Translations under genes and position numbers: made by a program | The notes under the pieces: generated by a model | Told to the model about the DNA's origin: nothing | The model's input: the letters and a program-made list of their open reading frames with translations, nothing else | Database searches by the model: none | From: Phycisphaerae bacterium | GTDB taxonomy: Bacteria; Planctomycetota; Phycisphaerae; Sedimentisphaerales; SM23-30 | Direction of reading: 5' to 3' | Length of the DNA: 60,669 nucleotides | NCBI GenBank assembly: GCA_016342495.1 | Contig: JAEIOG010000019.1 | Location: forward strand, 1 to 60,669 | In this document: positions 1,220 through 24,174 of the stretch, one piece after another | Position numbering within the stretch: the stretch's first letter is position 1 | Layout: every line of letters begins with the position of its first letter

Positions 1220-2491
1220 ATGAAATCAGAATTAATTACAGAACAACAATATCAAAACGCACAGGAACAATACGCAAATTTTGGTGTCGACACCAACCTT
1301 GCATTAAAAAACCTTGCGTCGATACCAATATCAATTCACTGTTGGCAAGGCGACGATGTGGCAGGCTTTGAAAACCGCAACGACACCAATGTCGACAGTT
1401 CAATACAGACAACTGGGGACTACCCCGGCAGAGCTCGAAATATTGAAGAATTGCGTAAGGATTTCGAGTTAGCATTAAAATTAATTCCTGGCAAACACAG
1501 ATTGAACCTTCATGCAAGCTACCTGGAAAACAATGGTAAAGCTGTAGCTCGCAATGAAATTGACATTAAACATTTTGCTGGCTGGGCCGATTGGGGCAAA
1601 GGGAAAATTGCGGGAATTGATTTCAACCCGACTTTTTTTGGCCATCCGAAAGCTATAGATGGTTTTACTTTGAGCCATCCCAACAAGGCTATTCGCCAGT
1701 TTTGGATTGAACACGGGATAGCATGTCGTAAAATCGCTGCCGCATTTGGCAAAGAATTTGGCACAACAACCGTTAATAACTTCTGGGTTCCTGACGGTTT
1801 CAAAGACATACCTGTCGACAGGTATAGCCCAAGAGCACGATTAGCTGATTCGCTTGACACTATTTTTAAAGAAGAATACAGTCAAGATTTATGTCTTGAC
1901 TCTGTTGAATCAAAATTATTTGGTGTGGGATTAGAAAGTTTCACCGTTGGTTCGCACGAATTCTACATGGGATATGCCATGTCTCGAGGGAAAATGCTAT
2001 GCCTTGACTCCGGGCATTTCCATCCAACAGAAATGATTTCAGAAAAGATTTCGGCACTAATGCAATTTTTACCCGAGCTTTTATTACATGTAAGCCGCCC
2101 GGTTCGATGGGACAGTGACCATGTTATTATTCTTAATGACGAGCTTATCGAAATAGCATGTGAAATTATCAGAAGCGGAAAAATTAAAAATATTCATATT
2201 GGACTGGATTTCTTCGATGCCAGCATCAACCGGATTGCCGCATGGGTCATCGGTACCAGGAATATGATCAAAGCTTTGCTTTACGCCCTGCTGGAACCAA
2301 ACCAGCTTTTAATTGAAAAAGAAAACAGTTTTGACTATACTTCACGGTTAGCACTGAAGGAAGAATCAAAAACGATGCCTTTCAATGTGATATGGAACTA
2401 TTATTGCCAGCAAGCCGAAGCACCTGTTGGTATCGAGTGGTTGAATACCGTCAAGACTTATGAAAAAGAAATTCTTAGTAAAAGAGATTGA
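1220..2491 (+). CDS. rhaA: L-rhamnose isomerase
   Basis: Cytoplasmic isomerase converting L-rhamnose to L-rhamnulose; the family also accepts other L-sugars such as L-mannose and L-lyxose. The 423 aa match the usual family length (about 419 in Escherichia coli) and align along their whole length. Recognisable blocks are SIHCWQGDDVAGFE near the N-terminus, DGFTLSHPNKAIRQFWIEH, VESKLFGVG, CLDSGHFHPTE, LLLHVSRPVRWDSDHV and GLDFFDASINRIAAWVIGTR. The metal-binding Glu (VESK), Asp and His (LDSGH) and Asp (GLDFFD) are present. It is the first enzyme gene after the AraC regulator and is followed 20 bp later by the permease gene, so the genes are probably cotranscribed. No alternative function is likely for the fold, but the true substrate could differ given the fucosidase-type GH95 gene downstream. 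Confidence 0.97.
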   Translation: MKSELITEQQYQNAQEQYANFGVDTNLALKNLASIPISIHCWQGDDVAGFENRNDTNVDSSIQTTGDYPGRARNIEELRKDFELALKLIPGKHRLNLHASYLENNGKAVARNEIDIKHFAGWADWGKGKIAGIDFNPTFFGHPKAIDGFTLSHPNKAIRQFWIEHGIACRKIAAAFGKEFGTTTVNNFWVPDGFKDIPVDRYSPRARLADSLDTIFKEEYSQDLCLDSVESKLFGVGLESFTVGSHEFYMGYAMSRGKMLCLDSGHFHPTEMISEKISALMQFLPELLLHVSRPVRWDSDHVIILNDELIEIACEIIRSGKIKNIHIGLDFFDASINRIAAWVIGTRNMIKALLYALLEPNQLLIEKENSFDYTSRLALKEESKTMPFNVIWNYYCQQAEAPVGIEWLNTVKTYEKEILSKRD

Positions 2492-2511
2492 TCAATAAAG
2501 GGATAACTTAA

Positions 2512-4107
2512 ATGAGCAATACCCAAACCGAACAAGAACACGGCGGCCATAATGAATATGAACGTCAACCAGTGCCGGCAAAAGCATTACTGGGATTTAA
2601 AAGCTTCCTTGGTATGTATGCTGGAGAACATTGCGCTGGAACAGAATTAATGATCGGGCCATTGTTCGTTGCAGCAGGTGTAGGCGCATCAGATTTGATA
2701 TGGGGGCTATTGCTGGGTAATGCCCTGGCAGTAATAAGCTGGATGCTATTATGTGGACCAATTGCGACCCGTACAAGACTTACATTATACAATCAGCTGG
2801 AAAAAATATGCGGATTTAAGCTGGTAACGCTTTACAACGTTGCCAATGGTGTGATGTTCTGTTTTTTAGCAGGTGCAATGATAACGGTATCGGCAACCGC
2901 AATTGGTGTTTGGTTTGACATTAAAATGCCAGGACTAAACGATATATATCCAAACAGCGCAGGCTGGGTATTTGCGGTATTAGCTGTCGGTGCGGTCATA
3001 TCCATTGTTGCCGCGTTCGGTTATCATACTGTCGCCAAATTCGCTAATCTTTCGGCCCCGTGGATGGTTTTAGTATTTGTTGCATTTGGTCTTATAGGCC
3101 TGAAGCAATTTATCGATATTAGCGATAAAGAAATTAATTCGGTAGGCTCATTATGGAATCTGGCCAAAACGGAAATATGGAAAGGCGGCGACCCGCAACC
3201 CGGAATGGCTAAATTCACTTTCTGGCATGTTACGTTCTTTGCCTGGTTCTGTAATATGGCCATGCATATCGGGATGAGTGATTTATCGGTTTTGCGATAT
3301 GCAAAAAAAAGCTGGTATGCCATCGCTGCGGGGGCGGGCATGTACATAGGCCATTTCATGGCATGGATCAGCGCATCTATTTTATATGCATACCAACTGC
3401 GATTAGATCCGGCAAACACCGATGTGTTGCCCGGACCGCTGGCATACAAAGCCGCTGGTTTTGCAGGGATTCTTTGCGTAATTATTGCCGGATGGACAAC
3501 GGCAAATCCAACAATATACCGTGCGGGGCTGGCGTTCCAGGCTATCATGCCTAAAAAATCCAGATTCGCGGTAACCCTTTTCACTGGCGCTATTGCAACA
3601 ATTGCCGGGATGTTTCCCGCTTTTGCAATGAAATTATTAGGCTTTGTTTCTTTGTACGGTTTACTGCTGATGCCGATGGGAGCTATCATTTTTGTAGACT
3701 TCTGGTATTTCAAGAAAATCGGTTTACAGCCCAACTTCGCTGAATTGGCAAAGAAAAGCTTTAATTGGGCCGCGGGGCTATCCTGGTTCATAACTTTGGG
3801 AATTAGCTGGTTTGCCGTGCAGCAAGGCTATATACAAATATATTTTGTCTCGCTTCCGGGATGGTTTCTGACCGCATTTCTATATATAATGCTATCGCGA
3901 ATCTATCAGAAACAATTCAAAATAGAATCTCCCTTGCATTTTGCCATTGGATCTATTGGACGATTAGCATTAATTGCTCTGGTTGTAATTGGGGTCATGT
4001 ATTCCCAAGGGAATATAGAATTAGCTCAAACAAAAACCTATATGACAATTATAACCCTAATATGGTTTGGCTGTGCCGGGTTTAACATGATAAAAGAAAA
4101 AAAATGA
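2512..4107 (+). CDS. NCS1-family (cytosine/purine permease-like) transporter, candidate sugar permease
   Basis: A 531-aa polytopic inner-membrane protein with about twelve hydrophobic segments. The N-terminal region (around FKSFLGMYAGEHCAGTELMI, then GLLLGNALAVISWMLL) and the overall layout resemble the CodB/NCS1 nucleobase-cation symporter family. A ribosome-binding site (AAGGGATAA) precedes the ATG. It sits between rhaA and the sugar kinase with gaps of only 20 and 38 bp, and no nucleobase gene is nearby. That context suggests it imports the deoxy-L-sugar used by the operon rather than a purine or pyrimidine. The substrate is inferred only; the family assignment is from recognition, not from a search. 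Confidence 0.75.
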   Translation: MSNTQTEQEHGGHNEYERQPVPAKALLGFKSFLGMYAGEHCAGTELMIGPLFVAAGVGASDLIWGLLLGNALAVISWMLLCGPIATRTRLTLYNQLEKICGFKLVTLYNVANGVMFCFLAGAMITVSATAIGVWFDIKMPGLNDIYPNSAGWVFAVLAVGAVISIVAAFGYHTVAKFANLSAPWMVLVFVAFGLIGLKQFIDISDKEINSVGSLWNLAKTEIWKGGDPQPGMAKFTFWHVTFFAWFCNMAMHIGMSDLSVLRYAKKSWYAIAAGAGMYIGHFMAWISASILYAYQLRLDPANTDVLPGPLAYKAAGFAGILCVIIAGWTTANPTIYRAGLAFQAIMPKKSRFAVTLFTGAIATIAGMFPAFAMKLLGFVSLYGLLLMPMGAIIFVDFWYFKKIGLQPNFAELAKKSFNWAAGLSWFITLGISWFAVQQGYIQIYFVSLPGWFLTAFLYIMLSRIYQKQFKIESPLHFAIGSIGRLALIALVVIGVMYSQGNIELAQTKTYMTIITLIWFGCAGFNMIKEKK

Positions 4108-4145
4108 TACTGCAGATTTATATCTGGGAGAAAAGATAAATATCT

Positions 4146-5714
4146 ATGAAAACCGAAACAACAGCTGTACTTGATATTGGAAAGACAAATAAAAAGGCTA
4201 TCATTTTTGATATGGACCTTAATGCCCTTTCCATAACAACAAAGCAGTTTCCTGAAATTGACAATCATGGTTTTTTGGTTGAACAACCTGAGGCTATTTT
4301 TCAATGGTTTCTTGAAACCCTCAGCGAAAAAAGTGACATATATGATATTAAAGCAATATCAATAACAACACACGGTGCATCAATAGTATGTATTGACCAG
4401 AAGGGGGAACTGACAACACCAACCCTTTGCTATACGAATAAAGCTGATCAGCATTTTGCTCAAAGATTTTACGACAAATATGGTTCACGCGAACTGCTCC
4501 ATCGCCATACTGTGACACCAGAAGTTGGTCATCTGGTAAATTCGGCTAAATTGATATATTTCATGCAAGAGCAATTCCCCAAACAATTCGCCAAAACTCA
4601 ACAGATATTGTTTTATCCGCAATATTTTGTATATAAACTGACTGGCAGTTTATGCGTTGAGCCGACAATGCTGGGTTGCCACACCTATCTTTATGATCCG
4701 AAAATTAAACATTATTCTTCGGTAGCAAAACAGCTTGGGGTTTCAGATTTAATGCCCAGAACTATCAGAAAATCATGGGAATCTGCCGGAAAAATCCGCA
4801 ATGAAATTGCCAGGAAGTACAATCTGTCTTCTGACTGCATTGTAACAATGGGTATTCATGACTCAAATTCAAGTTTGCTGCCCTATCGACTATCCTTAAA
4901 AAAAGATTTTGTGCTTAACTCTACCGGCACCTGGTGCGTAACAATGCGTCCCTGTAATTCAGTCGAAATAAAAGATGACCAGTTAAACAAAATGGTGTTT
5001 TATAATTTTGATGTTTTTGAACAGCCTGTCAAAACCAGTATGTTTATGGGTGGTAAGGAATATGAAAAATATATGGAAATTTTAAATAATATTCATCATC
5101 AAAATGATCAACCAGAATTTGATGCCAATATTTATGATAATATTTTCAATAATGCTGATACCTTTATATTGCCTACTATCACCAAAGGGACTGGCTTATT
5201 CCCTAATCACCCGGCAGCTGTAATCGAAGGAGAGCGATACATTCGTTACCAAGACATTATTAACAAGAAAGCTGTTCCGGAGTTCTTCTATGATTATCAA
5301 CATGCCACCGCTGTGCTGAATATCTCATTGGCAATTCAGACCTCTATCGCAATCAAGCACATCGGCTATACCGATAGCGATACGGTTTATGTTGAGGGTG
5401 GATTTACCAAAAATATTCCTTACCTGAAAATTCTTGCTTGCCTGCTGCCAAAAAGCAAAATCATGACATCATCGATGCCTCAGGCCACCGCTACTGGCGC
5501 AGCAATCCTGGGATTATCTGCTTTAGCCAATACCGCTCCAGATGAACTGACTATAAAACCATTAATACAGAGCAGACATATTCAGAATAACATTAATCTT
5601 AATACGGACAAATATGTGGCTAATTTTATTGATTCGCTAAATAATACTTGTATGCCACTCAACCAAAATTTGGCATACATTGACCCATCTAACAAATTAC
5701 AAGGAATTCAATGA
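4146..5714 (+). CDS. FGGY-family carbohydrate kinase (probable rhamnulokinase-type)
   Basis: A 522-aa ATP-dependent sugar kinase with the actin-like FGGY fold. The N-terminal phosphate-binding loop is VLDIGKTNKKAIIFD (residues about 8-22). The catalytic Asp lies in MGIHDSNSSL near residue 240, the second ATP loop in LNSTGTWCVTM, and the C-terminal adenosine-binding loop in VEGGFTKNIPYLK followed by QATATGAAILG. Because it follows rhaA, it most likely phosphorylates L-rhamnulose or a related L-ketose (L-fuculose is possible). Its stop codon overlaps the start of the GH95 gene as ATGA, indicating translational coupling. It is more divergent from enterobacterial RhaB than RhaA is from its counterpart, so no gene symbol is given. 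Confidence 0.85.
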   Translation: MKTETTAVLDIGKTNKKAIIFDMDLNALSITTKQFPEIDNHGFLVEQPEAIFQWFLETLSEKSDIYDIKAISITTHGASIVCIDQKGELTTPTLCYTNKADQHFAQRFYDKYGSRELLHRHTVTPEVGHLVNSAKLIYFMQEQFPKQFAKTQQILFYPQYFVYKLTGSLCVEPTMLGCHTYLYDPKIKHYSSVAKQLGVSDLMPRTIRKSWESAGKIRNEIARKYNLSSDCIVTMGIHDSNSSLLPYRLSLKKDFVLNSTGTWCVTMRPCNSVEIKDDQLNKMVFYNFDVFEQPVKTSMFMGGKEYEKYMEILNNIHHQNDQPEFDANIYDNIFNNADTFILPTITKGTGLFPNHPAAVIEGERYIRYQDIINKKAVPEFFYDYQHATAVLNISLAIQTSIAIKHIGYTDSDTVYVEGGFTKNIPYLKILACLLPKSKIMTSSMPQATATGAAILGLSALANTAPDELTIKPLIQSRHIQNNINLNTDKYVANFIDSLNNTCMPLNQNLAYIDPSNKLQGIQ

Positions 5715-8261: not shown

Positions 8262-9338
8262 TCACTGGTCAAAGAAGATGTGAGTCTTTTTATGGTTTAG
8301 CCACAAAGTGATATTATCGCCAGGTTTTAATTGGGTCTGGACTTTGGTATTGACAGCAAACTCGTTTCCAAAAAAATCTTTGAGATAGACAATCATTCGA
8401 TGGCCATGGAACTCCAGTGATTGGATTTTGGCTTTGATGGTATTCTCAGAGCAATTATTGTCGGGGAGTTCTATATCTTCAGGCCTGATACCCAAAATGG
8501 TTTTCTGATCAAGATATTTATCTTTATCGAGGTCGGGCTTTAATGTAACTGAGATACTATCATTTATCATGAAGGCTATGCTACCGTTATTTTTCCGAAC
8601 CGTACCGCCAAAAAAGTTCATCGGCGGTGAACCAATAAACTCACCAGCAAAGCGATTGGCCGGTTTATTATAGATTTCAAAAGGTGTACCGGCCTGAATA
8701 ATGGTACCTTTATTCATCAGAAAAATATTCTGGGCCATGGCCATCGCTTCGTCCTGATCGTGGGTAACATATAAAGTCGTCCAGTTTCGTTTATGATGGA
8801 GATGCCTGATTTTATTACGGATATCAACTCTGACCTGGGCATCAAGATTACTGAGCGGTTCATCAAAAAGACATATCGCCGGTTCCCGAACTATGGTCTT
8901 TGCTATTGCTACCAGTTGCTTTTGGCCACCGGAGAGGGTATGGGGCATACGCTTAAGCAGGTGAGTAATATCCAAAGCCTCTGCAGCATCATCGATTCGG
9001 GCATTAATCTGACTTTTAGACAAATTGTTCATTTTAAGAGCAAAAGCAATATTATTTTCTACATTTATATGTGGGTAGAGCTGATAGGTCTGAAAGACCA
9101 TGGCAATATTACGATTTTCCGGTAAGATATTATCTACAATATTGCCATCAATGCTGATTGAGCCAGCATCAGCTTTTTCCAGGCCAGCGATCAAGCGAAG
9201 GATAGTGCTTTTGCCACAGCCAGAAGGGCCAAGAATTACAGCTAACTGCCCTGCTTCAATGTTAAGGGATATATCAGATACGGCCTTGACATTACTACGA
9301 TAAACTTTAGAAATATTTTTAAGCTCAATATTGGCCAT
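8262..9338 (-). CDS. Sugar-type (CUT1, MsmK/UgpC-like) ABC transporter ATP-binding protein
   Basis: ATPase subunit of an ABC importer, acting on the cytoplasmic face of the membrane. From the chosen start (MANIELKNISKVY) the protein has 358 aa; an upstream in-frame ATG would add 21 hydrophobic residues that do not fit the family. Motifs in order are Walker A GPSGCGKST, Q-loop VFQTYQLYPH, signature LSGGQKQL (the usual LSGGQQQR is altered), Walker B CLFDEPLSNLD, H-loop VTHDQDE, then the PPMNFFGG junction and a TOBE/MalK regulatory domain. It is the only gene on this strand between two plus-strand operons. It may serve the ATPase-less importer genes at 11481-14956, or, like MsmK, energise sugar importers encoded elsewhere. 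The TOBE region and PPMNF motif favour a sugar importer. Confidence 0.9.
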   Translation of the reverse strand: MANIELKNISKVYRSNVKAVSDISLNIEAGQLAVILGPSGCGKSTILRLIAGLEKADAGSISIDGNIVDNILPENRNIAMVFQTYQLYPHINVENNIAFALKMNNLSKSQINARIDDAAEALDITHLLKRMPHTLSGGQKQLVAIAKTIVREPAICLFDEPLSNLDAQVRVDIRNKIRHLHHKRNWTTLYVTHDQDEAMAMAQNIFLMNKGTIIQAGTPFEIYNKPANRFAGEFIGSPPMNFFGGTVRKNNGSIAFMINDSISVTLKPDLDKDKYLDQKTILGIRPEDIELPDNNCSENTIKAKIQSLEFHGHRMIVYLKDFFGNEFAVNTKVQTQLKPGDNITLWLNHKKTHIFFDQ

Positions 9339-9456
9339 TACGATACATACCAAGGTGATTTTTACAATACTTATCTTTACATAGAAAAGCTCGTTCAGCA
9401 ATTATAACATGCATATTATCAAGGACAAGCAATTATAATTGAATAAATAAAGACAA

Positions 9457-9691: not shown

Positions 9692-11380
9692 ATGCCCAAA
9701 ATATTTGAAAAAAAGCTCCGACAGGCCCGAATCCGATGCGGTATTAATCGTTTTCTTGAGATATTTGCGTTTACAGCGTTATTATTCGGGATTCTGGGAG
9801 TTCTGGCAATATTGGCCGAAAAATTATTAGCCCTGCCCATCTTTACAGAACCATTTGTCGTAGGATTAACAGAGCGGGGACGGTGGATTATTTATTCAGC
9901 CGTGGCTGTTGGATTGATTATCATATTTACGATCTGGGTAGTCAAATTTCCGAAAAAGATGGCGATTGCTCTTGATATTGACCAGAAAATGGACCTCAAA
10001 GAAAGATTCAGTAGTACCATTTCTTTTTATAAGCAGACTCAGCAAAATAACCCATTTGTCCAGGCTTTCAAGGAACAAACTATGAAAATGGTGGGAGATT
10101 TGAAAGTTTCAGAGCATTTTCCGATCAGATTTTCCCGGAAATGGATGCATGCTATTGGGGTATGGATTATCGCTGGGGTTCTGGTGGCAACCTTGCCTCA
10201 AAAAGATCTTTTAGGGGTATTTAATGAGGAAAAAGAAGAAAAAAAGCGGAAAGAAGTGGCAACTCAGGCCAAAAAAGATATAGAAACCGTTACAAAACCA
10301 GTCGAAGCGGCCCTCGATAAGCTGGGTGAAGGGGAGATGGCCGATGCGTTGGCTGACCTGAAACGCCTGGAAAATGCCAGCGGAACAGCCGCCAAACGGC
10401 AGGCAATTAAGAAACTGGGCGAGATTTCCGATGCGATAAAAAATAAACAAAGTGAAAAATCGCTGGAATCAGTAAAAATGATGCAGGCGATGCTCAAGCA
10501 GATCAAGCCAACAGCAGATGTATCATCACAAAAACTATCGCAACAGTTAGCCAAAGGTGAGTTTGCCAAAGCCAATGAAACGCTCAGGCAGATGCAAAAA
10601 CAACTTCAAAATGAAAATATGTCACCCCAACAGCAAAAAGAGTTGCAAAAACAGATGAGCGACCTTGCAAAACAATTGAAAAAACTTGCCCAAAGGGATA
10701 AAAAGCTGGAAGAAGAACTGGAAAAGGCCGGGATGAAAAAGAAGCTGGCCCAGCGAACCAAAGAGCAAGTCAGAAAAGAACTTGAAGAAGCGGGACTGGA
10801 TAAGAAAAAAATTGAAGAGCTAATGAAGAAATTAGCTGCCAGCAATATGGCAAAGGAAAGTCTGGCAAAAATGGCTAATGCGATGGCAAGTATGGGAGAA
10901 GGTAAAAATGGGCTGACAGGTGAAGAACTGAGTGAATTGATGAACCAGCTTGATGAACTGGAATCCCTGAAAGATCAGATCAAACTATCGCAGGCGGTAA
11001 TGGACGAGATCGCACGGGCCAGCGAAGCCATGGGGCAGGGAATGGGAAACATGCCCGGACAAGGTAAAGGAGACGGGGCTGGGCCCGGTGGTATAGGCAG
11101 AGGCTATGGCGAGCGTGAAAGTGACACCAGTGGCCAAGTAGCTACAAAAAATACTAAATTAGAAAATGAATCAAAAGATGGCCCGGCAGTTGCGAGCTGG
11201 TACTTTAAAGGTCAGCAAGTTAAAGGCAAAGCACAATTAGGTTATTCTGAGGCAGTACAGGCAGGACGTGATAATGCAGCAGAAGCCATAAGTGATAATA
11301 AAGTGCCGCGTCGTTATGAACAAACGGTAAAGAATTATTTTGGCAATCTTGAAAAACAGCAGCCAAAGGATAGCGAATAA
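9692..11380 (+). CDS. Membrane protein with long coiled coil, first gene of the MoxR/VWA island
   Basis: A 562-aa protein of unknown function. Two transmembrane segments lie at about 22-46 and 64-86 and a third at about 152-171. From residue 175 to about 430 there is an extended, highly charged Lys/Glu/Gln-rich helical region predicted to be coiled coil, then a Gly-rich linker (about 445-480), and a C-terminal motif PRRYEQTVKNYFGNLEK. This layout resembles DUF4175-like proteins found next to MoxR/DUF58/VWA genes; that likeness is from memory. It is separated by 100 bp from the substrate-binding lipoprotein gene and probably starts the transcript. The coiled coil would face the cytoplasm or periplasm depending on topology and could act as a scaffold. 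Confidence 0.8.
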   Translation: MPKIFEKKLRQARIRCGINRFLEIFAFTALLFGILGVLAILAEKLLALPIFTEPFVVGLTERGRWIIYSAVAVGLIIIFTIWVVKFPKKMAIALDIDQKMDLKERFSSTISFYKQTQQNNPFVQAFKEQTMKMVGDLKVSEHFPIRFSRKWMHAIGVWIIAGVLVATLPQKDLLGVFNEEKEEKKRKEVATQAKKDIETVTKPVEAALDKLGEGEMADALADLKRLENASGTAAKRQAIKKLGEISDAIKNKQSEKSLESVKMMQAMLKQIKPTADVSSQKLSQQLAKGEFAKANETLRQMQKQLQNENMSPQQQKELQKQMSDLAKQLKKLAQRDKKLEEELEKAGMKKKLAQRTKEQVRKELEEAGLDKKKIEELMKKLAASNMAKESLAKMANAMASMGEGKNGLTGEELSELMNQLDELESLKDQIKLSQAVMDEIARASEAMGQGMGNMPGQGKGDGAGPGGIGRGYGERESDTSGQVATKNTKLENESKDGPAVASWYFKGQQVKGKAQLGYSEAVQAGRDNAAEAISDNKVPRRYEQTVKNYFGNLEKQQPKDSE

Positions 11381-11480
11381 CTGGTCGGGAAATGAAAAAT
11401 TTGTGGTTACATCGTCAGTGGGCTACTCCGTAGACCACTGCCACCCCACCGAATTTAAGATTTTATGGAGAAAAATAATT

Positions 11481-12527
11481 ATGCGATTGGTTATGAGCAA
11501 AATAATTGTGCTGGTTTGTCTATTAGTGCTGAGTTCATGCGGTTCAAGAGATAGTGAAACCAGGCAAGCAGATCAGGCGATTGCAGAGCCTATAATTGAG
11601 GAAGTTGTTCTTTATTGTTCAGCAGATCTGGCGATTGCAGAGCCTATAATTGAGGAATTTGAGAAAGTATCGGGGATTAAGGTTCTTGCCAGGTATGATA
11701 CTGAGGCAAGCAAAACGGTTGGTTTGGTGCAAAAGATTCGGGCAGAAGCGGACAAACCTTTTTGTGATGTATTCTGGTCCAGTGAAGTATTCCATACCAT
11801 ACAGATGGCAAATGAAGGATTACTGGTGAAATACTCTGGGATTAATCCTGCTGACTGGCCTAAAACTTATCGGGACGATGGCGGAATGTGGTTTGGTTTT
11901 GGGGTTCGCAGCCGGGTGATAGCGTATAATACAGATAAAATCAGCGAGGCAGATGCACCCAAAACTTTAGAAGATTTATTAAAACCGGAATTTAAGGGAC
12001 GTATCGCAATGGCAAGGCCAGTTGCCGGGACAACAATTGGCGATGTGGCCAGCTGGTTTGTGCATTATGGCGATGAACGCGGCAAAGAAATATTGCAGGG
12101 GCTCAAAGATAATAAAGTATTACTGGTGGATGGTAATAGTACCGCGGTAAGAATGATCGCAACTTCACAGGCTGATATATGCCTGACTGATACCGATGAT
12201 GTTTATGCCGGGCAGCGAAATGGCTGGACTATCAAGATGAATATGCTGGATCAAGGCGGCGATGGTGCTCTGGCGATACCTAATACCGCAGCGATGATTA
12301 AAAGTGGGCCTAATCCAGAAGCCGCAAAAATATTAATGGATTTCCTTTTGAGTAAAAGGCTGGAAGAAATGTTAATTGAAAGCGACTCTCATAACAGCCC
12401 GCTTAATAAAGATTTACAGCAAGAACACCCTGAATATTCTATTGTCAAACCTTTGGAAATAGAGTTTGAACAAGTAGCAAAAAAAATGCCTGACGCAATT
12501 AAAGCGGCTTTGGAGATACTGGATTGA
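11481..12527 (+). CDS. ABC transporter substrate-binding lipoprotein (AfuA/FbpA-like)
   Basis: Periplasmic binding protein of an importer. The start at 11481 is chosen because GGAG lies 10 bp upstream and it yields a lipoprotein signal (MRLVMSKIIVLVCLLVLSSC), with the lipidated Cys at residue 20; the open frame extends further upstream but into the preceding gene. The 348 aa contain a type II periplasmic-binding fold: VVLYCSADLAIAEPIIEEFE at the mature N-terminus, DVFWSSE, GFGVRSRVIAYNTD, LLKPEFKGRIAMARP, and the TSQADICLTDTDD hinge region. This matches the ferric-iron/thiamine/2-aminoethylphosphonate group. Just after the lipobox, an 18-codon stretch is tandemly duplicated in frame (11568-11657). 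Its stop codon overlaps the TTG start of the permease gene by four bases. The ligand is unknown. Confidence 0.88.
   Translation: MRLVMSKIIVLVCLLVLSSCGSRDSETRQADQAIAEPIIEEVVLYCSADLAIAEPIIEEFEKVSGIKVLARYDTEASKTVGLVQKIRAEADKPFCDVFWSSEVFHTIQMANEGLLVKYSGINPADWPKTYRDDGGMWFGFGVRSRVIAYNTDKISEADAPKTLEDLLKPEFKGRIAMARPVAGTTIGDVASWFVHYGDERGKEILQGLKDNKVLLVDGNSTAVRMIATSQADICLTDTDDVYAGQRNGWTIKMNMLDQGGDGALAIPNTAAMIKSGPNPEAAKILMDFLLSKRLEEMLIESDSHNSPLNKDLQQEHPEYSIVKPLEIEFEQVAKKMPDAIKAALEILD
11568..11657 (+). repeat. In-frame tandem duplication inside the substrate-binding protein gene
   Basis: Two 36-bp copies at 11568-11603 and 11622-11657 differ at a single base (GATCAGG versus GATCTGG) and are offset by exactly 54 bp (18 codons). 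They encode ADQAIAEPIIEE and ADLAIAEPIIEE. The second copy is the native start of the binding fold; the first adds residues between lipid anchor and domain. Confidence 0.9.
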
Positions 12528-14956
12528 AATTGAGGCATTGCATAATTCCATCAATAAAGAGTTTGTCGGTAAGCAGTTGGCTATTGCTGACGGTGGTGCC
12601 TTTAGTCGTGCTGGCTATTGGCGCATTTTCATCGACGGACAATAGCAAAAGCTTTATGGAATTCTGCAGTTATTCGATGTATTTTCAATGTTTTGGTTTA
12701 TCGTTTTTAATAGCTTTAGTAGCTGTTGTTCTTGGTTATATCCCAGCTAAATTATTTGGCAATGTCAATAAACCAATATTATTGTTATTGTTCATTCTGC
12801 CATTGATCATGCCCAGATATGTGTTGTATTATGCCTGGAGCTTATTATTGAGCATGGATGGTATGAATGTTGCGGCCAACAATATAGCCACATCCAGGCT
12901 ATTGCAGAAATTGATATCGACAGGTGCATTGATAACCTGGTATTGGCCACTAGCGGCTTTGCTTATCAGTCAGGGTTGGCGGAATATCGACAAGCAGTTG
13001 CTGGATAATGCCCGATGTGAAGCATCTAAATGGAAGATATTTACTAAGCTGGAACTGCCAATGCTAAGGCCATCTATATTGATGGCTTTCGGTGTGTGTT
13101 TTGTGATGTCAATGGCAGAATTTACGACATTTCATTTAGCCGGAGTGGAAACAATCGGCACCCGATTCGCAATTATGTATGATCTTTCTGGTGATGAGAA
13201 CCTAGTAATACGGGCGGCCTGGCCATTGATACTGATGGCTTTTATCGCAGCGGGGATTGTAAGTGTAAATATTCGTTCGTGGAATCGTGGCCATTTGCCT
13301 TCTGGTAATATTAATAAAAAAATGGGATGGAAATACTGGTTCTTTTTTCTTTTACTTGAAGTTTTTTCGGTTATTGTCCCCGTTATCATACTCATAGCCA
13401 ACATTAATTCTCTGAGTGAATTCAGAAGATTTATCGCCCTTCAAGGTGATGGACTTTTGTGGTCTTTCTGCATTGCATCGGTTGGGGCATTTATCGCATG
13501 TTTTATCGCAGGAGGAGCGTTATGGCTCAACAAAGCAGTTAAAAGCAATGTTTTCGGTACAATTCTCAGCGGTTCAGTATTTGCTGTTATGTTTCTGCCG
13601 GCATCGATAACTGCCGTATGCTTATTAAAGACCATGCCGGCTTTAATTCGTCATGGGTGGGCGATTGTTTCGATGGGACTGGCGATGAGATATGCGGGGA
13701 TTGGGCTGGTAATTTTTACATTAACTAATATTTCAGCTAATAAAGAGCTAGGCCAGATAGCGGCTTTGGATGGTGCATCAAAAATTAATGTGTGGCGGTA
13801 TATTCATTTGCCAAGAATCTGGCCGATGCTACTTGGTGCATTTTGTTTAATAATAATATTTGGTATAACAGAAATCGCATCAACAATGATATTGCTGCCT
13901 GCAGGACTGCCAAATTATGCACAACGGCTTTTAAATCAGATGCACTATGCCCGCGATCAGCAGGTTATCGCTTCGTGCCTTTTGTTAATAGGTGTATTTA
14001 CAATTGGGGCTGTGGTTTTAACCGGCATATTCAGACTTTCTGCTTTCAGAGGCTTTGCGAGCGTGATATTGATGGCAGGAATGCTGACTTGTACCGGCTG
14101 CGACGAAGAGCAAAGTCAACAAATGAATATTATCAGTGTATTTGGCCAAACAGGTAAAGGTCAATGTGAATTCATGTATCCAAGGGCAATTGATATTTCT
14201 CCAGATGGGTATTTGCATATTGTTGACAAAGCCGGTAGAATACAGCGTATTAGTACCAAAGGAATATATGTAAGTGAAATAAAGACACCTAAAATAGATG
14301 CCGGTAAACCTGTAGGGCTTAAATTTGGCCCGGATGGTAATTTATATGTAGCAGATACTCATTATCATCGGGTGCTTATCTATAACGTTGATGGTGAATT
14401 AATTAATCAATTTGGTAAATATGGTGAAGAAGACGGAAGTTTTATCTATCCGACCGATGTGGCGTTTTCGCCGGATGGCAGAATTTATGTAAGTGAATAT
14501 GGCGGTAATGACAGGGTCAGTGTTTTTAACAGTCAATGTGAATTTTTATTCAGCTTTGGCAGTTATGGCCAAAATGAAGGGCAGTTCATGCGTCCGGCGG
14601 CAATGGAAATTGATGCTGATAATAATTTGTTGTATATTGCAGATGCCTGCAATCATCGCATAGCAGTTTATGACTTCGATGGCAATCTTCAAAGATATTT
14701 CGGCTCTTTAGGAACAAAACCAGGTAAGATAAGATATCCTTATGATATTTGTTTGATAAATAATAAACTTGCGGTCTGCGAATATGGTAATAATCGTTTG
14801 CAGGTTTTTTCCTTAGATGGTCAATCGCTGGGGATTTATGGCAAAGCCGGCAGAGATGCCGGAAGCCTGGCTTATCCGTGGTCGGTTGTCGCTGGTAATG
14901 ATTATGTATATATAGTTGACTCAGGAAATAATAGAATACAGGTATGGCAATTATGA
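12524..14956 (+). CDS. Double ABC importer permease fused to a six-blade NHL propeller
   Basis: An 810-aa protein. Residues about 15-505 hold two BPD_transp_1-type permease units, as in FbpB/CysTW-like proteins, with EAA-loop-like segments around DNARCEASKWKIFTKLELP and AALDGASKINVWRYIHLP. About twelve transmembrane helices are visible. After the last permease helix comes an extra hydrophobic stretch ending MAGMLTCTGC, a lipobox-like sequence with Cys526. Residues about 535-810 then form six NHL repeats, each with a YPxDVAFSPDGRIYV-like strand and an N-R-I-x-V-type end. It starts at TTG (12524), overlapping the binding-protein stop. The NHL part would be placed outside the cytoplasm. No stop codon or frameshift separates the parts. 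The partner ATPase is not adjacent. Confidence 0.85.
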   Translation: MKLRHCIIPSIKSLSVSSWLLLTVVPLVVLAIGAFSSTDNSKSFMEFCSYSMYFQCFGLSFLIALVAVVLGYIPAKLFGNVNKPILLLLFILPLIMPRYVLYYAWSLLLSMDGMNVAANNIATSRLLQKLISTGALITWYWPLAALLISQGWRNIDKQLLDNARCEASKWKIFTKLELPMLRPSILMAFGVCFVMSMAEFTTFHLAGVETIGTRFAIMYDLSGDENLVIRAAWPLILMAFIAAGIVSVNIRSWNRGHLPSGNINKKMGWKYWFFFLLLEVFSVIVPVIILIANINSLSEFRRFIALQGDGLLWSFCIASVGAFIACFIAGGALWLNKAVKSNVFGTILSGSVFAVMFLPASITAVCLLKTMPALIRHGWAIVSMGLAMRYAGIGLVIFTLTNISANKELGQIAALDGASKINVWRYIHLPRIWPMLLGAFCLIIIFGITEIASTMILLPAGLPNYAQRLLNQMHYARDQQVIASCLLLIGVFTIGAVVLTGIFRLSAFRGFASVILMAGMLTCTGCDEEQSQQMNIISVFGQTGKGQCEFMYPRAIDISPDGYLHIVDKAGRIQRISTKGIYVSEIKTPKIDAGKPVGLKFGPDGNLYVADTHYHRVLIYNVDGELINQFGKYGEEDGSFIYPTDVAFSPDGRIYVSEYGGNDRVSVFNSQCEFLFSFGSYGQNEGQFMRPAAMEIDADNNLLYIADACNHRIAVYDFDGNLQRYFGSLGTKPGKIRYPYDICLINNKLAVCEYGNNRLQVFSLDGQSLGIYGKAGRDAGSLAYPWSVVAGNDYVYIVDSGNNRIQVWQL

Positions 14957-17900
14957 TAGCTGCATATGATTTTTATTTTGCAAAGCCCTGGTGGCTTCTA
15001 GCGTGTGCGTTAATAGTGCCGGCGATATGGATCGCCTGGGCCAATTTAGCATCGCTTGGAAATGTACGCAGATATGTGGCTATAGGTTTGCGCTGCCTTG
15101 TAATATTTCTTTTAGCGGCGATGCTTGCCCGGCCCAAATTAGCTGAAGAAAATCAAACACTGGCGGTGATGGCGGTTATTGATCATAGCTCTTCAGTGCC
15201 AGAGGCATTAAAAAATGCGAGTTTTGACTATCTTGATGAAGTTCTGGCTAAAAAAGAAGCTGAAAATATGCTGGCGGTGGTTGACATCGCTGAGATGGCA
15301 TCAATATCAAGGTTGCCATCCAGAGATACAGAAATTCGCCGACGGAATACTACGCTAAACGGCAGTGCATCGGATCTGGCTAAAGGGTTACAGATGGCTA
15401 TGGCGATATCCCCAGCAGATACGGCAACGCGAATCCTGCTGGTCAGCGATGGCAATGAAACATCAGGCGATCTCAAAGAAGCAGCCAGAATTGCAGCAGC
15501 CAACGGAATACCTATAGATGTTCTGCCTTTGAGATATAATTATGAACATGAAGTCATATTTAAGAAGCTGGCAACACCGGTTCAGGCAAGAAGCGGACAA
15601 ACTGTCAGTTTGAGATTTGTTTTAAGCAGTACAGCCAAAGCATCGGGGAAAATTGTGCTGACCTGCAATGGCAAAGCAGTTATTCTTGATCCTGAAAATG
15701 AAAATATTGCGGCCAACATAGAGCTAACACCAGGTACAAATGTTAAGACAATATCACTGCCGGTGGGAACTCGCGGGATGCATGATTATGAAGCAGTCTT
15801 TATTCCTGATGATGAATCACAGGATATGATAGTTCAGAATAATAAAGCTACCGCGATAACATATGTCAGCGGGCCGGGACATGTTCTGGTATGTGATGCT
15901 GATGGTAAAAGCGGGACATATCTGTTGAATATGCTGAATAGTTCTGATATTGAAGCGCAATATCTTCCGGTCGATTCATTTCCTGATAAGCTGACACAAT
16001 TGATGGATACAGATGCTGTTGTTCTGGTCAATATCGATTGCAGTAATTTCAGCTATCAGCAACAGGAAATGATCGTTAAATATGTCAATGAACTGGGTGG
16101 CGGCCTGGTAATGATAGGAGGAGATAATTCTTTTGGTGCCGGTGGCTGGATCGGTTCTCCTGTAGCTGATATTCTGCCGGTGGATCTTGACCCGCCACAG
16201 AAAAAGCAATTGCCCAAAGGGGCCCTTATGCTGATAATGCATGCCTGCGAAATTCCACAAGGTAACTATTGGGGAAAAAGGATAGCTAAAGAAGCCGTCA
16301 AAACCCTTAGCAGACTGGACTATGCCGGGGTGCTTGCCTATAGCTATAATGGCGATGGAGACTGGGTTTACCCATTTTCCCAGGTTGATGATAAAAAGAA
16401 AATCAACGCAGCAATAGATAATATGGTAATGGGGGATATGCCAAGTCTACATGATCTTGCGCAGCAGGCATATGATAAACTCAAGACCTCAGATGCCGCC
16501 CAAAAACATGTTATAGTTATAAGCGATGGAGACCCGGCACCACCTACCGGTGCCCTGCTGGATTTGTGTAAAAAGGAAGGGATTACGATTACTGGCATTG
16601 GCATAAATCCGCATTCACCCAATGATGTCAATAGTTTAAAATATGTAGCACAAAAAACCGGCGGGCGTTTTTACCATGTTAAAAACCCCAATGATCTGCC
16701 TAAGATATTTATCAAAGAAGCTCAGGTTATCAAAAGAGCACTTATTATCGAAGAGCCATTTATACCCCAAATTACATATTCATTAAATGAAATCACCAAA
16801 GGTTTACCATCACCACTACCGAAGCTGGATGGCTATATTTTCACAGGGCCTAAGAGTGGACTTAGCCAGGTTATTTTTGTCAGCGATAAATCTGACCCGA
16901 TCCTTGCAACCTGCCAATCCGGTCTGGGGCGCTGTGTGGCATTTACCAGCTCGATTGATAGTCGCTGGGGGTCAAGCTGGCTGGGGTGGCCATCAAATGA
17001 AAGATTCTGGGAGCAGGTAACAAGATGGGCATGCAAGTCATCTTCAAGCAAATCATCAGATTGCGATGCCTATGTTGAAATTAATGGCCAGGAAGTCAGT
17101 TTGAATGTTGAAGCTATTGATTCCGATGGAAGTTTTATTCAACTGGCGAATATTGATGGACGGGTAATAACACCGGATTTCAATACGAGTAATATGAAAT
17201 TATCGCAGAATGGACCGGGTGAATACAGCGGCAAATTCAAAGCGAATGGGCCGGGTAGCTATATCATAAATCTGCAATATAGAAAGATAGGCGATAAAGA
17301 ACCACGTTTAACGCAAATACCCGTCTCGGTGCCATTTGCTCCGGAATTCAGGGAACTTAGCGACAATTCGGCTTTGCTGAAAGAGATTTGTGATATTTCT
17401 GGAGGTCGTTTGCTGGATGTGCCTTGGGAAGCGGGCGACGATTTTGATAAAGTCCTTGATGAAGCAAATTTATATGATACGGCCAATATAAAATTTCCTC
17501 AAAGTGAGTTGTCTATTGCACGGTATCTGATGTATGCCTGGCTGGTATTGTTCCTGCTGGATATTGCGGTGCGCAGAGTTTCGCTGAATATAATTGCGAT
17601 GATCAGGAAGCTTTATCTGAAGATGGCTAAATTACTTATGCCAAAACACAAGAGCGAAGAAAATATTAATAAACTCAAAGAAGTTCGTGAAAAAATCAAA
17701 AAAGATTATACCAAACGTTCTGAAAGTGAATTTTCGGCAAAACGTTATCAGGCAGATACAACAACTGAAATAGAAATGCCGAAAAATATTGAAGAGCCGG
17801 AAAAAGAGGCTAAGCTTAGCCAACCTGAGAAAAAAGAGAAACCGGTAAAAGATAATGCCAAAGAAGATGGCACAGATACTGATCAGTCACATATTAATAA

Positions 17901-17958
17901 ACTGCTAAAGGCTAAAAGAAAATTTACTGATAACTATAAAGAAAAAGATGAGAAATAA
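14953..17958 (+). CDS. Large VWA/GATase-like inner-membrane protein
   Basis: About 1,000 aa. The start at 14953 (ATGA overlap with the previous stop) is preferred to the ATG at 14944, which would overlap by 13 bp. Two N-terminal transmembrane helices (about 10-27 and 40-60) are followed by a von Willebrand A domain with an Asp-Ser MIDAS start (VIDHSSSVPEAL). Next is a glutamine-amidotransferase-like segment (VKYVNELGGGLVMIGGDNSF), then a second VWA-like region (HVIVISDGDPAPP, then GGRFYHVKNPNDLPKIF). A transmembrane helix near 860-880 and a long Lys/Glu-rich cytoplasmic tail (about 900-1,000) close the protein. The layout matches VWA partners of MoxR ATPases in planctomycetes; the exact role is unknown. 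The tail could contact MoxR (inference). Confidence 0.85.
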   Translation: MIAAYDFYFAKPWWLLACALIVPAIWIAWANLASLGNVRRYVAIGLRCLVIFLLAAMLARPKLAEENQTLAVMAVIDHSSSVPEALKNASFDYLDEVLAKKEAENMLAVVDIAEMASISRLPSRDTEIRRRNTTLNGSASDLAKGLQMAMAISPADTATRILLVSDGNETSGDLKEAARIAAANGIPIDVLPLRYNYEHEVIFKKLATPVQARSGQTVSLRFVLSSTAKASGKIVLTCNGKAVILDPENENIAANIELTPGTNVKTISLPVGTRGMHDYEAVFIPDDESQDMIVQNNKATAITYVSGPGHVLVCDADGKSGTYLLNMLNSSDIEAQYLPVDSFPDKLTQLMDTDAVVLVNIDCSNFSYQQQEMIVKYVNELGGGLVMIGGDNSFGAGGWIGSPVADILPVDLDPPQKKQLPKGALMLIMHACEIPQGNYWGKRIAKEAVKTLSRLDYAGVLAYSYNGDGDWVYPFSQVDDKKKINAAIDNMVMGDMPSLHDLAQQAYDKLKTSDAAQKHVIVISDGDPAPPTGALLDLCKKEGITITGIGINPHSPNDVNSLKYVAQKTGGRFYHVKNPNDLPKIFIKEAQVIKRALIIEEPFIPQITYSLNEITKGLPSPLPKLDGYIFTGPKSGLSQVIFVSDKSDPILATCQSGLGRCVAFTSSIDSRWGSSWLGWPSNERFWEQVTRWACKSSSSKSSDCDAYVEINGQEVSLNVEAIDSDGSFIQLANIDGRVITPDFNTSNMKLSQNGPGEYSGKFKANGPGSYIINLQYRKIGDKEPRLTQIPVSVPFAPEFRELSDNSALLKEICDISGGRLLDVPWEAGDDFDKVLDEANLYDTANIKFPQSELSIARYLMYAWLVLFLLDIAVRRVSLNIIAMIRKLYLKMAKLLMPKHKSEENINKLKEVREKIKKDYTKRSESEFSAKRYQADTTTEIEMPKNIEEPEKEAKLSQPEKKEKPVKDNAKEDGTDTDQSHINKLLKAKRKFTDNYKEKDEK

Positions 17959-17979: not shown

Positions 17980-19008
17980 ATGCCAGAGAATAAATCCAAT
18001 GAATCGGTAACAAATGAAAATATCGAGCAGAAATGCAAAGAATTCTGCGATGTATTTAAGAAAATGCATACTGAAATATCAAAGGTAATTGTAGGCCACG
18101 AAGAAATTATCGAAAATGTGCTGATTAGTCTGTTCAGTGGCGGGCATGTGCTTTTGGAAAGTGTTCCGGGGCTGGGCAAGACTTTGCTGGTAAGGACGCT
18201 TAGCGATGCTTTGTCCTTAAAATTCGGACGAATCCAGTTTACGCCGGACTTGATGCCAGCGGATATTATTGGCACAAATATCGTGATGGAAGATCATGAA
18301 ACCGGTCGCAGACAATTCAAGTTTGAATCAGGGCCGATATTTAACCAGATTATTCTGGCCGATGAAATTAATCGGGCGACACCAAAAACCCAATCAGCGA
18401 TGCTGGAAGCTATGCAGGAACAGTCTGTAACCAGCGGCGGCAATGTATATAAGCTTCCTGACCCGTTTATTGTGATGGCGACCCAGAACCCTATCGAGCA
18501 GGAAGGAACATACCCTCTTCCTGAAGCACAACTGGACAGATTTTTCTTCAAGCTTATTGTGCCATACAGCAACCGTGAAGAACTGCGAACTATACTTGAC
18601 CGGACGACCGCAGGTGATATGCCCACAGCAGAGCCAATAATGTCTGGGCCGGAGATCGTTGCAGCCCGCAGACTGATAAAACAGGTAGCGGTCGCTGAGC
18701 ATGTTCAGGATTATGCTATAAGACTGGTTCTGGCGACACATCCGGATGGAGAATTCGCACCAGAGATAGCCAAACGCTATATCAGATTTGGCTCATCGCC
18801 GCGTGGAGTACAAGCGGTAATTCTGGCCAGCAAAGTAAGAGCTATGCTTTCTGGACGCTACCATGTTGGATTTGATGATATAATAAGTTCCTATCTGCCA
18901 GCGATGCGACACAGGATATTGCTGAATTTTGAAGGGCAGGCCGAAGGAATCGATAATGACCAGTTACTGACAAGTATTATAGAACAAACTCCAAAGAGTC
19001 TGGATTAA
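17980..19008 (+). CDS. MoxR-family AAA+ ATPase
   Basis: A 342-aa cytoplasmic AAA+ ATPase of the MoxR group, chaperone-like partners of VWA-domain proteins. The Walker A is SVPGLGKTLLVRTL (residues about 57-70), Walker B IILADEINRATPKTQSAMLEAMQE (about 125-148), sensor 1 VMATQNPIEQEGTYPLPEAQLDRF (about 165-190), and the C-terminal lid contains SPRGVQAVILASKVRA. The length is usual for the family. A Shine-Dalgarno (AGGAGA) precedes the ATG. It lies 21 bp after the large VWA gene and one base before the DUF58 gene, a standard MoxR-DUF58-VWA order. Confidence 0.95.
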   Translation: MPENKSNESVTNENIEQKCKEFCDVFKKMHTEISKVIVGHEEIIENVLISLFSGGHVLLESVPGLGKTLLVRTLSDALSLKFGRIQFTPDLMPADIIGTNIVMEDHETGRRQFKFESGPIFNQIILADEINRATPKTQSAMLEAMQEQSVTSGGNVYKLPDPFIVMATQNPIEQEGTYPLPEAQLDRFFFKLIVPYSNREELRTILDRTTAGDMPTAEPIMSGPEIVAARRLIKQVAVAEHVQDYAIRLVLATHPDGEFAPEIAKRYIRFGSSPRGVQAVILASKVRAMLSGRYHVGFDDIISSYLPAMRHRILLNFEGQAEGIDNDQLLTSIIEQTPKSLD

Positions 19009-19009: not shown

Positions 19010-19930
19010 ATGGCTAAAACACTTAGAAAAATCACACAATTGCTTGAGCCGGAATTTATGGCCAAGCTTGATACGCTGGATGTGCTCAGCAGAAAGATAC
19101 ATCATGGCAGACTGCAAGGTGAACGCCGCTCGCGTCGTCGCGGGCAAAGCGTGGAATTTGCTGACCACCGACCTTATGTTGTTGGCGATGACCTGCGATT
19201 TGTAGACTGGAATATATATGCCCGCCTGGAACAGCTTTTTTTGAAGATGTTTTTGGAAGAACAGGATTTAACTGTTCATATCATGGTAGATGTCAGCGGA
19301 TCGGTTGGCTCGAATATTTCGGATCAGGCCGCGGATATGGATATGCGAGAAAAATATATCAAAAAGCTCGCTGCGGCATTGGGCTATGTATCTATGGTTA
19401 ATAATAATCGTGTAACCATGAGCACCTTTGCCAATGGAGTTGTGGGCCAGTTAGCTAACATGCGAGGGAGGAACTATCTGCCGGAAATGGCGGAATTCCT
19501 GCTTAGTGCGACCTGTTCGGGGGCATCGAATTTTGATAGTACATGCAAACAAGCAGTCAGCGGGCGAATTGGATCGGGGATAATGATCGTATTAAGTGAT
19601 TTTATGTTTAAGGAAGGATACGAACAAGGACTGCGAAGGCTCATCGGGCAAAAATATGATTTGTATGCTATACAGGTTTTGACTCCAGATGAACTGGAAC
19701 CAAAAATAAGCGGGGATTTGAAGCTGGTAGATATTGAAGATTCAGATACAGCTGAGATAACGGTCAGTTCGGCCCTGTTGAAATATTACAAACGCAATCT
19801 CAGTGCATACTGTAATGAACTAAAAGAATTTTGTACAAGACGCGGCGGCGTATATGTACTGGCAAATGCGTCTGATGCCGTAGAAACGATGGTATTAAAA
19901 TACCTGCAACGTGTCAGCCTGTTACATTAA
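19010..19930 (+). CDS. DUF58 domain protein (MoxR partner)
   Basis: A 306-aa protein with the DUF58 core: GERRSRRRGQSVEFADHRPYVVGDDLRFVDW (residues about 36-68) and a VWA-like half beginning MVDVSGSVGSN (about 93-103), where the DxSGS start of the MIDAS site is intact. It has no transmembrane helix, unlike many DUF58 proteins, so it is likely cytoplasmic or peripheral. The gene starts one base after the moxR-type stop codon. The downstream VWA reading frame also overlaps its end, but the better start of that gene lies at 19953. Confidence 0.93.
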   Translation: MAKTLRKITQLLEPEFMAKLDTLDVLSRKIHHGRLQGERRSRRRGQSVEFADHRPYVVGDDLRFVDWNIYARLEQLFLKMFLEEQDLTVHIMVDVSGSVGSNISDQAADMDMREKYIKKLAAALGYVSMVNNNRVTMSTFANGVVGQLANMRGRNYLPEMAEFLLSATCSGASNFDSTCKQAVSGRIGSGIMIVLSDFMFKEGYEQGLRRLIGQKYDLYAIQVLTPDELEPKISGDLKLVDIEDSDTAEITVSSALLKYYKRNLSAYCNELKEFCTRRGGVYVLANASDAVETMVLKYLQRVSLLH

Positions 19931-19952
19931 CCAAGGAATAAGAGTAAAAAAT

Positions 19953-21950
19953 ATGGAATGGCTTACACCATTATCTGGAATATATGCGGCGGCATTTGCG
20001 ATACCAACATTGCTTTTGCTATATTTTCTCAAGCTGAAAAGACGTGAGAAGGTAATTGGCTGCACATTGCTTTGGAAAAGAGCTGTGCAGGATTTGCAGG
20101 TAAACGCACCCTTCCAAAAGCTACGGCGGAATATTTTGTTGCTGTTTCAGTTGCTTGCGATACTTGGGATACTGGCCGCTATTGCAGGGCCAGTTTTGTC
20201 ATTGGATACCGCACCGGTGGGAAGATATGTAATACTTGTCGATCATTCGGGTAGTATGAACGCTACCGATATTCCATCAAGCCGCCTGGAAGAAGCTAAA
20301 AAACAGGCCAGGGATTTTGTAGAAAGCCTGCGTGGTGAATCATTTTTTGGTGTGAAAGACAATGCTGATCAAGCGATGGTAATAGCGTTTAATTCCAGCA
20401 GTAAAGTTATGTGCAACTTTGTTTCAGATAAAAAGCAACTGCTAAGAGCTATAGATGACATCAAACCAACAGATGGCAAATCATTACTTAAAGAAACATT
20501 GCAGGTTGCCCAGGCATTTGCCCAGTCACCGGGGGTGGAAACGAATAATCGAAGCAGCCTTGAACCCGCAAAAATAGTATTGTTCAGTGATGGCAAAATC
20601 ATCGGAGTAGATGACCTTGCCGTTGGAAGCGATGTGATTTATCACCAGATCGGCAAAGAAGCGGACAATCTGGGCGTAACAGCCATGCAGGCCAAACGAA
20701 GTTATGAACACCCCGAAGAAGTCAGCGTATTTGCGACTATAGCGAATTATTCAGAAACCGAGCAAGGCTGCGATATACAGCTTAGCATAGATAACAATGT
20801 TAAGAAGGTAAAATTTGCATCTATTCCGCCATCGGGTTCTACGGAATTAGATTCTAAAAAGAAAGATCCCGGCAAAGTTTCAGTATCTTTTTCACTGGAA
20901 CATCCCGGCGCAGGTGTGGTCGAAGTCAGGTGCATACCGACTAATGATAGCGATAATGATTTTGTGGATTATCTTGCCGCCGATGATGCGGCATGGTCGA
21001 TATTACCGCCACCCAAGAAATTATCAGTGATGCTGGTAACTGAAGGTAATCCCGCATTGGAATCAGCTTTTGGAGCCTGTCCGCTTGCCAAGCTTGAAAT
21101 TACCAATTCAAATGTTTTTATTCAGAATTCGGATAACAAGACCTTTGAAGATACTGCAGCAGATTATGATGTGATTATACTGGACAATACCTTGCCGGAA
21201 AAATTACCACGAGGCCGCTATCTAATATTTGGCGAACCTCCTGAAGGCATTGGCGTTGAAGTAACTGGTGAAATTCAAAATCAGACTATCGTAGATTGGC
21301 GTTGGCAACATTCCTTGTTAAAATATGTAGATATGAATAATCTTTATGCTGCTAAATGTGTAGAAATGACACTGCCACGAGATGCTGAAGTTCTGGCTGA
21401 ATTTAATGAAACACCAGCGATATCGATATTGCGTAGAAATGGCAGTGCATTTATTCTTGCTGGCTTTGATGTTATGGATACTAATTGGCCATTTGAAACC
21501 AGTTTTATTCTTTTCTGCTATAATTCGATGGCCTATCTTGGCACTGAAATGGATACTTTAGACAAGGCAAATATGCTTGTAAGCCAAATAATTATGGTCG
21601 ATGATTTAATAAGCCAAAAAGAATATAAAATTGCAGGGCCGGATTTTGATAGTGAGAAATTATTAGCCAGCAAGACCGGAGCAATTCGTTTTTCTGGGAC
21701 AGAGCGAGCTGGGATTTATAGCATTGATATCCCGGAAAAAGAAACGAAAATATTTGCCGTCAATATGCTGAGTGAATCTGAAAGCAATATCGCACCAGCA
21801 AATAATATTGAATTTTCAGACAAGGAAGTTGCCGCCCAGGAAAGTGCCGCAGGCAATAGCAATATACCGATATGGCCATATTTGGCTTTTGTGGCATTGA
21901 TACTCATTTTTGTTGAATGGTTAATATATAACTCGAAAATGAGATTATAA
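19953..21950 (+). CDS. BatA-like membrane protein with VWA domain
   Basis: About 665 aa from the chosen ATG at 19953; the frame is open from 19911 but the added 14 residues lack family character. Residues 1-90 are the BatA N-terminal module: a membrane segment (SGIYAAAFAIPTLLLLYFLK), the basic KLKRREKVIGCTLLWKRA stretch, and a second helix (ILLLFQLLAILGILAAIAGP). A VWA domain with MIDAS motif VDHSGSMNATD follows (about 95-250). The middle contains CARDB-like and GATase-like beta regions, and a C-terminal helix (WPYLAFVALILIFVEWLIY) anchors the protein. It is the membrane VWA partner expected for MoxR, with most of its mass in the periplasm. Confidence 0.9.
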   Translation: MEWLTPLSGIYAAAFAIPTLLLLYFLKLKRREKVIGCTLLWKRAVQDLQVNAPFQKLRRNILLLFQLLAILGILAAIAGPVLSLDTAPVGRYVILVDHSGSMNATDIPSSRLEEAKKQARDFVESLRGESFFGVKDNADQAMVIAFNSSSKVMCNFVSDKKQLLRAIDDIKPTDGKSLLKETLQVAQAFAQSPGVETNNRSSLEPAKIVLFSDGKIIGVDDLAVGSDVIYHQIGKEADNLGVTAMQAKRSYEHPEEVSVFATIANYSETEQGCDIQLSIDNNVKKVKFASIPPSGSTELDSKKKDPGKVSVSFSLEHPGAGVVEVRCIPTNDSDNDFVDYLAADDAAWSILPPPKKLSVMLVTEGNPALESAFGACPLAKLEITNSNVFIQNSDNKTFEDTAADYDVIILDNTLPEKLPRGRYLIFGEPPEGIGVEVTGEIQNQTIVDWRWQHSLLKYVDMNNLYAAKCVEMTLPRDAEVLAEFNETPAISILRRNGSAFILAGFDVMDTNWPFETSFILFCYNSMAYLGTEMDTLDKANMLVSQIIMVDDLISQKEYKIAGPDFDSEKLLASKTGAIRFSGTERAGIYSIDIPEKETKIFAVNMLSESESNIAPANNIEFSDKEVAAQESAAGNSNIPIWPYLAFVALILIFVEWLIYNSKMRL

Positions 21951-24123: not shown

Positions 24124-24174
24124 TTAAAAAGACAAACTCAATTGTTATGAGTATAAAATTGATATAAGGAATTG

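Follow-up and report, generated by a model that had tools for sequence, protein, structure and literature searches.

Organization of the locus

The DNA analyzed here, referred to as the window, is a 60,669-nucleotide stretch from a Phycisphaerae bacterium (contig JAEIOG010000019.1, positions 1 to 60,669). It carries an operon in which an ABC importer permease continues in frame into a six-bladed NHL propeller. The genes of this operon and a divergent neighbor are listed below, with the parts of the fused gene placed beneath it.

8262-9401, minus strand: divergent MalK/UgpC-type ABC ATPase, the best match within its own genome to the operon ATPase of another family
9692-11380, plus strand: coiled-coil membrane protein, the conserved first gene of the operon
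11340-12527, plus strand: solute-binding protein with its own lipoprotein signal (LVLSSC), resembling ferric-iron and aminoethylphosphonate binding proteins
12524-14956, plus strand: fused gene, a single open frame of 810 amino acids
12524-14038, plus strand: ABC importer permease part, FbpB/MalG-like, residues 1-505, in two six-helix halves, with EAA-type coupling loops near residues 149-183 and 399-438
14039-14101, plus strand: internal lipoprotein-type signal segment, residues 506-526, with an Arg-containing n-region, about 16 uncharged residues and T-G-C at 524-526
14099-14101, plus strand: codon of Cys526, which is predicted to become the lipidated Cys at +1 once the chain is cut and is invariant in every fused relative
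14126-14953, plus strand: six-bladed NHL propeller, residues 535-810
14944-17958, plus strand: vWA/GATase1-like membrane protein, its start overlapping the propeller stop
17980-19008, plus strand: MoxR AAA+ ATPase
19010-19930, plus strand: DUF58 protein
19911-21950, plus strand: BatA/VWA_2 protein

The fused gene begins with a TTG that overlaps the stop codon of the upstream gene for the binding protein; the true start of that upstream gene probably lies downstream of its listed TTG. The conserved gene order runs from the coiled-coil protein through the binding protein, the permease, an ATPase in some cases (in other families its gene lies between permease and propeller), the NHL propeller, the vWA protein, MoxR and DUF58 to the BatA-type vWA protein.

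Architecture of the fused protein

An earlier note on this DNA had described a permease and six NHL repeats sharing one frame, a description on which ORF translation (no internal stops), Pfam, AlphaFold2 and Foldseek now agree. Pfam recognizes BPD_transp_1 at residues 67-245 (30.4 bits against a cut-off of 26.4) and NHL repeats at 94.2 bits against a cut-off of 20. Hydropathy and charge across 35 sequences define 12 hydrophobic segments in the permease part with a mostly positive-inside pattern, and the membrane part resembles FbpB of the Thermus ferric importer (9j4r, TMt 0.74 in Foldseek). By its Pfam score and FbpB fold, this part is a binding-protein-dependent ABC importer permease. The propeller resembles six-bladed NHL domains such as that of Drosophila Thin (6xg7, TMt 0.90), and the TRIM71 NHL domain matches it with E values down to 1e-65. 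In the AlphaFold2 model of the fused chain, computed from 35 fused sequences with a mean pLDDT of 85.7, helices extend up to residue 505, a short and weak helix occupies 512-521, confidence is lowest at 521-528, and a well-predicted propeller begins at residue 535.

Recurrence of the fusion among relatives

A frame of this kind could be an artefact if a sequencing or assembly error had deleted a stop codon or merged two genes; the window sits in a 221-contig assembly, and the G050 copy has a frame break within its permease. Dozens of independent genomes with the identical in-frame fusion speak against this. The full-length fusion was found in 7 of 59 relatives at 45-49% identity, strong matches occurred in 34 of 161 genomes of the order and were almost all full-length fused, and a propeller tree of 147 genomes holds 68 that are permease-fused, 11 that are ATPase-fused and 68 in which the propeller is separate. 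The same fusion with the same Gly-Cys pair is present in 8/8 aligned sequences of the first relatives, in 35/35 fused proteins and in 68/68 permease fusions. When contigs were scanned with the window protein, the sole match, in a MAG of Aminicenantes, was to NHL.

Purifying selection also spans the seam. In eight of nine close fused pairs, the 45-47 codons that surround the seam have a pN/pS of 0.20-0.71, compared with 0.12-0.25 for the propeller, while the ninth pair hardly differs around the seam and is too similar for a verdict. The seam is thus translated, under constraint that is weaker yet present. The earlier note had raised the prospect of a sequencing error or missed stop between residues 505 and 535 and of homologues that are always separate genes; no such error was found, and the tree holds fused as well as separate homologues. 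On the strength of the relatives and of pN/pS, an artefact or missed stop is rejected, its probability being practically negligible.

A lipoprotein-type signal at the seam

The junction reads VLTGIFRLSAFRGFASVILMAGMLTCTGC-DEE, with Cys526 as the putative lipidation site. The segment has the makings of a lipoprotein signal, namely a Lys/Arg n-region, a short uncharged h-region and [GAS]C; it ends at residue 526 rather than lying at the precursor N-terminus, where it is found in separate relatives. The lipobox claimed by the earlier note holds up in that its Gly-Cys pair is invariant in fused relatives, but it departs from the canonical form: the window has C-T-G-C, with an unusual Cys at -3 in place of Leu, Val or Ile. 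A strict lipobox, [LVI][ASTVI][GAS]C, is present in 34 of 68 permease fusions and 21 of 58 separate relatives, and the window protein is among those that lack it.

Conservation at this site is sharply focused. When 8 sequences are aligned, no position from residue 488 to 541 is invariant except G525 and C526. Both stay invariant between variable flanks in 35 fused proteins with 27-50% identity to the window protein, in whose permease part only W141, P286 and H474 are invariant. The residue before the Cys is Gly in 65, Ser in 2 and Ala in 1 of the 68 permease-fused proteins, 56% of which have Asp or Glu at +2. In gamma-proteobacteria, Asp at +2 favors retention in the inner membrane, a rule that may not apply to this group.

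A signal-like segment ending in [GSA]C, after Arg/Lys and an uncharged run, is found in 68/68 permease-fused and 11/11 ATPase-fused proteins, counts from a Cys finder that demanded a small residue before the Cys after an uncharged stretch and is biased towards such sites; the Gly-Cys invariance in the 35-protein alignment is independent of that finder. In permease fusions, about 13 residues with almost no charge lie between the Arg-rich stretch and this small residue-Cys pair, and the median uncharged run before the Cys is 16 in permease-fused proteins, 15 in ATPase-fused proteins and 15 in separate lipoproteins. Given the 12 helices and the charge pattern, the Arg-rich stretch is predicted to be cytoplasmic and the Cys to face the periplasm. 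The genome has one LspA gene and two Lgt genes.

Separate and ATPase-fused propellers

The segment had been read as the signal peptide of a former separate lipoprotein. This reading is well supported, as roughly half of the genomes sampled have separate propeller ORFs with a signal peptide and lipobox. Many class- and phylum-wide matches start near profile position 520, where the signal segment lies, and belong to ORFs 300-400 aa long. The separate ORFs mostly have their own signal peptide and lipobox and often directly follow the permease gene. The permease stop mostly precedes the Cys by 15-60 codons and may be in the propeller's frame or in a different one. At seven loci (L072, L073, L120, L125, L126, L134, L141), one in-frame stop alone parts permease and propeller.

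The permease is not the only fusion partner. In 11 genomes from families f50, f22 and f35 (L151, L152, L156-L161, L164, L170, L145), the propeller is fused to the importer ATPase, and a hydrophobic segment and Gly-Cys mark this seam as well. In these proteins a cytoplasmic enzyme is apparently followed by an internal lipoprotein signal. One of them, L145 (G282, family f22, from the window's own class), groups with f50 of another class with support 93, which hints at operon transfer.

On the propeller tree, the permease fusion requires 12 state changes, at least 8 of them forced by well-supported branches; the tree was made by a quick method with a midpoint root, so that gains and losses are not distinguishable, and frameshifts in MAGs could raise the count of split/fused changes. 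Separate propellers with a hydrophobic N-terminal segment and no Cys occur in family f72 (L153, L165, L167) and at L104, and none of the 68 permease-fused and 11 ATPase-fused propellers lacks the Cys. That Cys loss is confined to separate propellers is suggestive only, as these come from few lineages.

A polyprotein model and its alternatives

The probable reading of these patterns is that the fused protein is a polyprotein, from which Lgt and signal peptidase II would yield a free permease and a lipidated propeller anchored in the inner membrane. The permease part is predicted to insert as 12 helices with a cytoplasmic C-terminus. An internal signal would then be formed by the Arg-containing stretch past helix 12, as its n-region, and by the 13-19 uncharged residues that come next, as its h-region. 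On the outer side of the inner membrane, Lgt would lipidate Cys526 and signal peptidase II (LspA) would cut just ahead of it. The products would be an ordinary FbpB-type permease that ends in a short C-terminal tail and an NHL-propeller lipoprotein anchored in the periplasmic leaflet of that membrane. Relatives with separate genes would give the same two products, and fusion may mainly ensure equal, co-translational production of both parts. The propeller would partner the MoxR/vWA/BatA proteins and the importer of the same operon, as its conserved neighborhood and its fusion to transporter subunits suggest.

The chain might instead stay uncut, with the segment after helix 12 acting as a 13th transmembrane helix that tethers the propeller as a periplasmic accessory or sensor domain. 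Extracytoplasmic domains on ABC permeases are known in principle (OpuA-type binding domains), and the fusion is stable over a large clade. A tether has no need of Gly-Cys, yet the pair is present in 79/79 fused proteins; the uncharged stretch of about 16 residues falls short of a typical membrane-spanning helix and has the length seen in separate lipoproteins, and the AlphaFold2 helix here is short and of low confidence. Separate propellers without a lipobox do occur in family f72, whereas fused ones do not. A permanent tether is therefore judged unlikely. The earlier note had left cleavage and tether both standing: cleavage at Cys526 is now favored, since the lipobox is in every fused protein, in two kinds of fusion, and fused and separate states interconvert, although the cut itself is read from sequence. 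Its further suggestion of a built-in ligand or cofactor sensor found no specific support, and the operon ties the propeller to the MoxR/vWA/BatA system instead.

Two products could also come from translation, if an internal start gave the lipoprotein beside a read-through fusion. Most sequences have an in-frame GTG, TTG or ATG upstream of the segment, and all three ATPase fusions examined have a start-like codon with a weak Shine-Dalgarno-like match. The position of the start-like codon is not conserved, a Shine-Dalgarno-like match is found in few of the permease fusions, and the tested stretch of L076, L084 and L138 lacks any start codon; with no stop in the permease frame, the fused chain would be made anyway. 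Internal initiation as the sole source of the propeller is rejected because a conserved start is absent, and its use beside the fusion seems very improbable.

A cut at the seam remains the simplest reading, because the signal is always kept whichever subunit is joined, while the fusion comes and goes. One gene thus probably encodes two separate envelope proteins in dozens of related bacteria. It is also fairly likely that fusing an inner-membrane lipoprotein to an importer permease or ATPase is a recurrent and reversible strategy over a wide bacterial group, with signal peptidase II as the protease processing the internal site.

Lipoprotein signals are generally treated as N-terminal, and prediction tools look for them there. 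If cells do use internal sites behind a 12-helix protein or a cytoplasmic ATPase, annotation is overlooking lipoproteins, and signal peptidase II has a further role as a protease of polyproteins. Recurrent fusion also links an uncharacterized, widely conserved NHL lipoprotein and its MoxR/vWA/BatA operon to an ABC importer, which offers a concrete entry point to their function.

Relation to known systems

A parallel in processing is Bradyrhizobium fbcH, a cytochrome b/c1 polyprotein that is cut at an internal signal sequence. Both join a polytopic membrane protein to an exported protein with an internal signal-sequence cut, predicted in the case of the window protein; the fbcH product is not a lipoprotein, whereas the window site resembles a signal peptidase II site. 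The six-bladed NHL fold is shared with Thin, TRIM71, Brat and the ScyF family (NF035926), whose model scores 144 bits against the propeller, below its cut-off of 350. To our knowledge, none of these NHL proteins is an exported lipoprotein or has been linked to a transporter.

FbpB of ferric importers (FbpBC, PDB 9j4r) likewise has two fused BPD_transp_1-type halves with 12 helices and adjoins an FbpA-like binding protein; FbpB stops after the permease, whereas the window protein continues with the signal segment and propeller. OpuA (PMC11065425) and GlnPQ are importers with fused extracytoplasmic binding domains that stay attached. They share with the window protein an extracytoplasmic domain joined to the permease chain, but theirs is an attached binding domain and here it is an NHL propeller behind a lipobox.

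In MoxR-vWA-beta-propeller ternary systems (PMC7159879; Pfam bpMoxR), the vWA protein itself carries a fused propeller with about four blades. As here, MoxR, vWA and propeller are encoded together; here, the propeller is six-bladed, exported and either separate or transporter-fused, and is accompanied by DUF58, BatA and an ABC importer. Assignment to the ternary systems is rejected because the defining propeller-vWA fusion is absent, with only L190 joining the two. At that locus (528-4703, minus strand), an NHL lipoprotein and the downstream vWA protein form a continuous 1392-aa frame. A literature search returned nothing on point for the NHL/MoxR operon, internal lipoboxes or fbcH.

Operon partners and the importer substrate

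Neither the binding protein nor the permease was detected at L105 (G084), L139 (G236) and L143 (G188), where the coiled-coil protein, NHL lipoprotein and vWA protein are kept, which points to the MoxR/vWA genes as the core link of the propeller. No cognate ATPase gene was found in the window operon or in the long loci of close relatives. The MalK-type ATPase at 8262-9401 is a possible energy partner of the importer, judging from its sequence match; no such gene was found beside the operon in close relatives.

The binding protein resembles proteins that bind ferric iron, 7w3w being its best match (1.8e-25). Its TDTDDVYAG, kept in the binding proteins of close relatives, aligns with VNNYYLPRF of 7w3w and lacks the iron-binding tyrosine pair. 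Iron is therefore not taken as the established substrate, and the importer may carry something other than ferric iron.

Two further gene sets in the window were noted. At 53227-55143 lies a 638-aa SecA-like protein, shorter than usual SecA, in which GEGKT and helicase-like motifs were seen by eye. Downstream of the MoxR/BatA genes, at 24172-30426, an ABC ATPase precedes three membrane proteins of the ABC-2 type that are much alike in length.
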